64,000 bases of DNA, from assembly GCF_018457165.1 (NCBI RefSeq), contig NZ_JAFMNX010000001.1, positions 310,001-374,000 of the forward strand. The letters are read 5' to 3'. Below are positions 53,027 to 54,397 of this stretch, piece after piece. Made by a program: the position numbers and the translations under genes. Each line of letters starts with the position of its first letter. Positions within the stretch are counted from its first letter, which is position 1. The notes under the pieces were generated by a model. The model saw only the letters and a list, made by a program, of their open reading frames with translations. It did not search any database and was not told where the DNA came from. The stretch comes from Tianweitania aestuarii (GTDB taxonomy: Bacteria; Pseudomonadota; Alphaproteobacteria; Rhizobiales; Rhizobiaceae).

Positions 53027-53073
53027 GCGCCAGGCAACTTCCAGGGGCGCTTAGGAATTAAGCAACTTTCCAG

Positions 53074-53102
53074 TTGCGCAATAATCGGGCATCGTCTATA
53101 CA
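53074..53102 (+). promoter_or_regulatory. Promoter of the cuckoo-like small RNA
   Basis: TTGCGC and TATACA are separated by 17 bp, placing a start site near 53108, just before the first hairpin. The -10 box is good and the -35 box moderate. Confidence 0.55.
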
Positions 53103-53107
53103 GACGT

Positions 53108-53185
53108 CACGGTCGCTCAACCTCCTCCCTGAGTGATCGCATCGAACAAGCGCCTGCCGCACCTCCTCCCGCGGCAGGCGTTTTT
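53108..53185 (+). ncRNA. Cuckoo/alpha-r14-type small RNA with two anti-Shine-Dalgarno hairpins
   Basis: About 78 nt, built of two hairpins, each with a 10-bp stem and the same 10-nt loop ACCTCCTCCC. Hairpin 1 is CGGTCGCTCA / TGAGTGATCG (53110-53139, with G-U pairs); hairpin 2 is CGCCTGCCGC / GCGGCAGGCG (53151-53180), followed by TTTTT as a terminator. The CCUCCUCCC loop is complementary to ribosome-binding sites. This is the architecture of the Rhizobiales cuckoo (alpha-r14) RNAs and resembles CcsR RNAs of Rhodobacter, which act as post-transcriptional regulators. Family membership is from recall and not from a search. Confidence 0.8.
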
Positions 53186-53207
53186 CGTTTGCGATCCGAG
53201 TGGATGA

Positions 53208-54227
53208 TCAGACGGTCATTGCGGCGGTCGGGGCAGGGGTAAAGGCATTGCGCCGCCCGAGCGTGGTTTCCCAGGCCAGTGCGTGTCCAACGATCGTATC
53301 GAGATCGTCGTAGTTCGGCTGCCAGCCGAGCTCCGCGCGCGCCAAGGACGCATTGGCGACGATCGCGGCCGTGTCGCCTGGACGCCGACCCGCTAGTTCA
53401 ACCTTGAAGTCGACCCCGCTCAAACGCTTCACGCTGTCGATCACGTCGAGCACGGAATAGCCATGGCCGTAACCGCAATTGGCGATGATGCTGTCGGCGC
53501 CGGATCGAAGCCGCTTCAGGGCGAGGCGATGCGCCGCCACAAGATCCGAGACATGGATGAAATCACGCACGCAGGTGCCGTCCGCCGTGTCGTAGTCGGT
53601 GCCGAACACGCTCATCTTTTCGCGCTTGCCGAGCGCCGTTTCGCAGGCGACCTTGATCAGGTGCGTTGCGCCGGGCGTTGATTGCCCGGTCCGCGCTTTC
53701 GGATCAGCGCCCGCCACGTTGAAGTAGCGCAGGGCTGTGAAGGTGAGGGGATGAGCGGCAGCGGTGTCGCGCAGCATCCATTCGGTCATCAGCTTGGAAC
53801 GGCCGTAGGGCGATTCCGGATCCTTCGCCATGTCCTCGCTGACCGGTTCCTTGCCGGTGCCGCCATAAACGGCAGCCGTGGAGGAAAAGATGAAGTGCGG
53901 AACGTTGCCGCGAACGGCACTTTCGATGAGTGTACGGGATTTGGAGGTGTTGTTTTCGTAGTAGCCGAGCGGATCTGCGACCGATTCCGGCACCACAACG
54001 GAGCCGGCAAAGTGGATGATGGCGTCGATGTCGTGTTCGCCGATCAGTCTTGCCAGCAGGTCCTTGTCGGCAACGTCACCTTCCACGAGAACGGCTTCGG
54101 GCGCGACGGCCCATTCGTAGCCGGTGGACAGGTGGTCCAGAACGACGACATCCTCTCCGTCGTCAAGCAACTCCCAGACCATGTGACTGCCGATGTAACC
54201 CGCTCCGCCCGTAACCAGTACCGCCAT
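53208..54227 (-). CDS. galE: UDP-glucose 4-epimerase
   Basis: A 339-residue NAD-dependent SDR that interconverts UDP-glucose and UDP-galactose for polysaccharide synthesis. Motifs are VLVTGGAGYIGSHMVWELLD, IIHFAGSVVVPESVADPL, FSSTAAVYGG with the catalytic Ser, SPYGRSKLMTEW with Tyr and Lys, LRYFNVAGADP, and GTCVRDFIHVSDLVAAHR. A 22-codon upstream extension lacks family character. It is divergent from the Wzz-like gene, and both belong to surface-polysaccharide functions. Confidence 0.96.
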   Translation of the reverse strand: MAVLVTGGAGYIGSHMVWELLDDGEDVVVLDHLSTGYEWAVAPEAVLVEGDVADKDLLARLIGEHDIDAIIHFAGSVVVPESVADPLGYYENNTSKSRTLIESAVRGNVPHFIFSSTAAVYGGTGKEPVSEDMAKDPESPYGRSKLMTEWMLRDTAAAHPLTFTALRYFNVAGADPKARTGQSTPGATHLIKVACETALGKREKMSVFGTDYDTADGTCVRDFIHVSDLVAAHRLALKRLRSGADSIIANCGYGHGYSVLDVIDSVKRLSGVDFKVELAGRRPGDTAAIVANASLARAELGWQPNYDDLDTIVGHALAWETTLGRRNAFTPAPTAAMTV

Positions 54228-54397
54228 CTGAGCCTGTCCTTGCAGCTTGTGGTGACCTCTATAATGGGTGTTGGGGGCACGTGCGAGCCACATCCATCAA
54301 GATGGTGACATTCGCGTTATCTGGCTTAACCTTTTCTTTTCCAAGCTTGTTCAAGGTGCTTTAACTTCACGAGCCCGAGGCCGGAACTGCGCGCGCG

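Follow-up and report, generated by a model that had tools for sequence, protein, structure and literature searches.

Genomic Context and Secondary Structure

The element described here occupies positions 53110-53185 (+) of the window, i.e., of the whole 64-kb stretch of DNA that was analysed. It is intergenic, with a DUF982 gene on one side and a convergent galE-like gene on the other (Table 1). The DUF982 gene ends 84 bp upstream of the element, in agreement with the spacing of about 80 bp given in the original prediction. Read from the sequence, the element consists of two paired hairpins, each with a 10-bp stem and with the same loop, ACCTCCTCCC, and hairpin 2 together with the T tract behind it is likely an intrinsic terminator. 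No open reading frame of at least 50 aa overlaps the element on either strand.

The folding of 53106-53186 as RNA gave both hairpins at −38.8 kcal/mol, against a mean of −19.9 for shuffled sequences (z = −6.7), and none of the 200 dinucleotide shuffles reached the stability of the element. Sequence and fold are thus in accordance with the twin 10-bp hairpins, identical loops and terminal TTTTT that had been claimed for this site. The motif CCTCCTCCC was counted twice in the 64-kb window, both times within the element, where the chance expectation was 0.44.

Table 1. Features of the locus and of the related array in the same genome. Positions are those of the window, except for the last row.
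Feature	Position	Strand	Evidence
Hairpin 1: stem 53110-53119 / 53130-53139, 10 pairs including two G-U; loop ACCTCCTCCC 53120-53129 (anti-Shine-Dalgarno)	53110-53139	+	Fold; covariation
Hairpin 2: stem 53151-53160 / 53171-53180, 10 Watson-Crick pairs; loop ACCTCCTCCC 53161-53170 (anti-Shine-Dalgarno)	53151-53180	+	Fold; covariation
T tract TTTTT directly 3' of hairpin 2	53181-53185	+	Sequence; 4 or 5 T kept in both orthologues
DUF982 gene, 101 aa	52721-53026	+	Pfam PF06169, E 2e-13; present at the T. populi locus, absent from the G036 locus
galE-like epimerase gene, convergent; conserved neighbour	53208-54293	-	Pfam Epimerase, E 9e-56; adjoins the RNA in 3 of 3 genomes
Putative promoter: TTGCGC (53074-53079), 17-nt spacer, TATACA (53097-53102)	53074-53102	+	Read from the sequence
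Short dyad GCAACT-TTCC-AGTTGC overlapping the -35 box	53062-53077	.	Sequence; T. populi keeps GCAAC...GTTGC, absent from G036 (L107)
DUF1127 gene, then tandem array of at least 4 ar14 RNAs	G000:C1:1663342-1664094 and G000:C2:1-99 (L094, L095)		ar14 search; Pfam

Orthologues, Putative Promoter and Covariation

The RNA is present beside galE in all three Tianweitania genomes compared. The closest named genome is that of Tianweitania populi, the locus of which is syntenic and carries, in order, the genes of a PQQ dehydrogenase, a small membrane protein and DUF982, the RNA, galE and a Wzz-like gene. In the third species (genome G036, locus L107), the position of the RNA is unchanged, with the membrane protein gene on one side and galE on the other. 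Both of these flanking genes are on the opposite strand, and the DUF982 homologues of this genome are located on contigs other than that of the RNA; therefore, the RNA needs its own promoter and is a transcription unit of its own. The DUF982 neighbourhood noted in the original prediction is accordingly a feature of the window and of T. populi, in which the gene is adjacent, and is missing in the third species. As its absence from the G036 locus means that the gene is not required, DUF982 was rejected as a functional partner.

Of the promoter proposed just upstream, TTGCGC-N17-TATACA, both boxes and the 17-nt spacing are present, and it ends 7 nt before the stem of hairpin 1, but a scan with an E. 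coli-type consensus made no call at this site. The corresponding sequence of G036 is TTGCCC-N17-TATAAC, with 8 nt between its end and the 10-bp stem; in T. populi, TTGCGC is conserved and the second box, TACAAA, is weaker. A promoter at this position is plausible. The dyad overlapping its -35 box may serve as a binding site for a regulator or as a weak terminator for the DUF982 gene.

The covariation analysis was based on a trimmed three-way alignment, a small sample of three sequences, in which all 20 loop bases were identical and 59 of the 60 stem cells formed standard pairs. Two-sided compensatory changes were found in 10 of the 20 stem pairs: seven of ten in hairpin 1 and three of ten in hairpin 2, all cells of which were paired. 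None of 500 shuffles scored as high, and slid structures gave values of 1 or 2. Each of the three orthologues has only two CCTCCTCCC hairpins. The comparison of relatives thus revealed fixed loops and stems that had been rewritten with their pairing kept, which is the opposite of the pattern (stems kept, loop motif lost) that the original prediction had named as speaking against it. The three orthologues provide clean comparative support for the loop as the part that selection keeps and, judged from these sequences, the copy is real and maintained by evolution.

Family Assignment and Further Copies

At the Rfam gathering thresholds, nothing but tRNAs was detected in the whole window. In a permissive scan, the best match of the element was ar14, with 57.6 bits (E 2e-10) against a cut-off of 58.8, i.e., 1.2 bits short, followed by CcsR1 (RF02791), whose 30.9 bits were far below the cut-off of 65.3. 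The ar14 score of the G036 orthologue was 57.6 bits, and that of the T. populi orthologue was 60.1 bits. The alpha-r14 model, which had been suggested as a check, is therefore passed by the T. populi orthologue and narrowly missed by the window copy. This near miss is probably due to the model expecting three hairpins, the first of which was laid over the promoter region in the alignment of the window copy; therefore, two-hairpin members of the family may be under-annotated. The Rfam families mraW, ctRNA_p42d and anti-hemB were rejected, as all of them scored far under their own cut-offs, and these weak matches probably result from the G+C-rich hairpins.

The hairpin loops of the cuckoo, alpha-r14 and CcsR RNAs mimic the ribosome's own mRNA-finding sequence. 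As in the cuckoo group, at least two consecutive hairpins with CCUCCUCCC unpaired in each loop were found here, together with variable paired stems, fixed loops and several copies per alphaproteobacterial genome. The element is an unannotated copy of this known alphaproteobacterial sRNA family (cuckoo / alpha-r14 / CcsR), a kind that is already well described. The cuckoo or alpha-r14-like reading of the original prediction is thus upheld by the top rank of ar14, the score of the T. populi orthologue and the kept loops, but for an RNA of two hairpins. The variation of the hairpin number within the family has already been described (PMC3927594).

The ar14 search of the window's genome revealed four further copies above the cut-off. 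A tandem of three copies occupies C1:1663504-1663967; it is followed by an incomplete fourth, with which contig C1 ends, and contig C2 begins with another copy. These RNAs are of the three-hairpin type, and the array is headed by a DUF1127 gene (46 aa, Pfam E 3e-16), an organisation that has been named the CIN1 locus (PMC10253847). Since an assembly break probably falls within the array, its copy number is a lower bound.

Within the GTDB family of the window, ar14 RNAs were found in 97 of the 101 sampled genomes, in 91 of them above the cut-off, and in none of the 14 control genomes. In the family loci examined, a transcript mostly has two to four hairpins, both where a DUF1127 gene is adjacent and where it is not, and free-standing cuckoo genes are widespread in the family. 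A three-hairpin ar14 copy was also observed at about 1420-1530 on the minus strand of loci L054 and L058 (genomes G028 and G127), scoring 82 bits in L054; a search of the surrounding 1.5 kb found no DUF1127 gene.

Related Elements in Phages and Prophages

The window element had no match among the phage records. When viral contigs were scanned for a pattern of two closely spaced loops, 99 stretches were returned, 43 of which had both motifs in stems; many of these are near-identical copies of one element, and some of the stretches may be chance matches in coding sequence. Conserved two-hairpin CCUCCUCCC elements are present at L115 3347-3417 and, as near-identical copies, in many IMG/VR contigs. 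In Rhizobium phage RHph_TM3_3_3 (L258, about 1489-1560), a two-hairpin element is present, and RNA folding returned this structure.

Directly behind the Mu-like head gene gpT, two-hairpin ACCTCCTCCC elements were observed at the genome locus L109 (G036:C16:376176-376302, -) and in the metagenomic contig L134 (1729-1802), with ar14 scores of about 45 bits each. A general link between gpT and such hairpins was rejected, as, among 46 gpT loci examined in viral contigs, hairpins were present at a single one, namely the starting locus of the search. The gpT hairpins look sporadically acquired because the other gpT loci examined do not have them. A limited literature search found no paper on the use of such RNAs by phages; the phage and prophage elements are possibly phage-borne cuckoo-like RNAs.

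Proposed Function and Alternative Explanations

The structure, compensatory conservation, loop invariance, synteny and family resemblance presented above point to a free-standing gene of a two-hairpin, cuckoo/CcsR-like trans-acting sRNA, the loops of which would repress translation by pairing at Shine-Dalgarno regions, and we consider this reading to be quite probable. Transcription would begin close to the base of hairpin 1, driven by a putative sigma-70-type promoter just upstream, and would be terminated by hairpin 2 and the following U tract, resulting in an RNA of about 75-80 nt. Each loop would expose ACCUCCUCCC. By pairing with Shine-Dalgarno regions of the GGAGG type, this sequence could prevent the ribosome from binding, and decay of the mRNA would probably follow. 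In NfeR1, the three CCUCCUCCC loops silence translation initiation regions, e.g., that of ntrB, by pairing with them as mutually redundant seeds (PMC10746234); by analogy, the two loops of the window element are probably redundant as well. Repression of such mRNA targets might be under stress or nutrient control.

The genome contains 248 GGAGGA-N3-12-ATG sites, compared with 44 for the reversed pattern, and therefore many possible pairing partners. The predicted pairing of the loop with a GGAGGA-type site amounts to about −11 kcal/mol, and that with the full 9-nt complement to about −20. Genome-wide, there are 23 CCTCCTCCC sites, 14 in these RNAs and 9 elsewhere, and 17 sites of the reversed control pattern. 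The small number of full 9-nt complements located outside the sRNA genes (9 sites vs. 17 for the control pattern) counts against the reading. The match of the 6-nt core to Shine-Dalgarno sites is not specific; specificity has to come from more than this core.

Alternatively, the hairpins could belong to the DUF982 mRNA as its 3' UTR and terminator, any sRNA being released by processing, as RNase E does on the ccaF1-CcsR transcript. The DUF982 gene is on the same strand with no clear terminator in between, and a precedent exists in the CcsR RNAs, which are released by cleavage from a transcript that they share with a DUF1127 mRNA (PMC10253847). However, the RNA keeps its place in G036, where no upstream gene runs in the same direction, and a mere terminator would need neither two hairpins nor identical loops, so that we regard this origin as unlikely. 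The loops might instead be a sponge for, or the target of, other RNAs or a protein (e.g., a DUF1127 protein) and not anti-Shine-Dalgarno mRNA seeds, but this seems quite improbable to us. Such a role would fit the sharing of one loop by many sRNA copies and the DUF1127 gene at the head of the array in the window's genome, and the DUF1127 protein CcaF1 does bind RNA and affect CcsR maturation (PMC10253847). However, the loops of NfeR1 were identified by mutation as mRNA-silencing seeds (PMC10746234), and the locus of the element has no DUF1127 gene. The element has one hairpin fewer than ar14, and in S. meliloti one alone of the six copies was reliably detected (PMC7143759), which would suit a silent relic copy from the three-hairpin array; yet the fixed loops and the compensatory stem changes over three species indicate continuing selection, and such a relic is hardly to be expected.

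As a free-standing trans-acting sRNA gene, the element would add a predicted, so far unannotated regulator to a little-studied genus; the picture of the cuckoo family is unchanged by the window copy. More tentatively, and leaning slightly to the doubtful side, we propose that it represents a second, separately controlled cuckoo branch in the genus. In this view, the two-hairpin gene next to galE would be inherited vertically, would have a promoter and a terminator of its own, and would diverge independently of the three-hairpin array linked to DUF1127 and serve a different regulon or condition.

Comparison with Known Systems

The element shares with alpha-r14 (ar14, RF02344; NfeR1 of Sinorhizobium meliloti) the successive hairpins with variable stems and a fixed CCUCCUCCC loop, the T tract after the last hairpin and the free-standing sigma-70-type promoter, which is putative here. 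However, alpha-r14 proper has three hairpins, the third of which is missing from the window element, and the upstream region of the NfeR1-type promoters is unlike that of the element. In the number of hairpins, it corresponds to CcsR1-4 of Rhodobacter sphaeroides (RF02791, RSs0680a), which also consist of two hairpins, each with a CCUCCUCCC loop. Unlike the CcsR RNAs, which stand in a tandem array linked to DUF1127 and are processed out of a single transcript, the window copy is single, has its own likely terminator and lies beside galE and DUF982 without DUF1127 linkage. The cuckoo RNA family and its CIN1 loci, described by Reinkensmeier and Giegerich, are likewise modular; the number of their anti-Shine-Dalgarno hairpins varies, and a genome contains several copies (PMC3927594). 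There is no difference of principle from these RNAs, and the window copy is located outside the DUF1127-associated locus.
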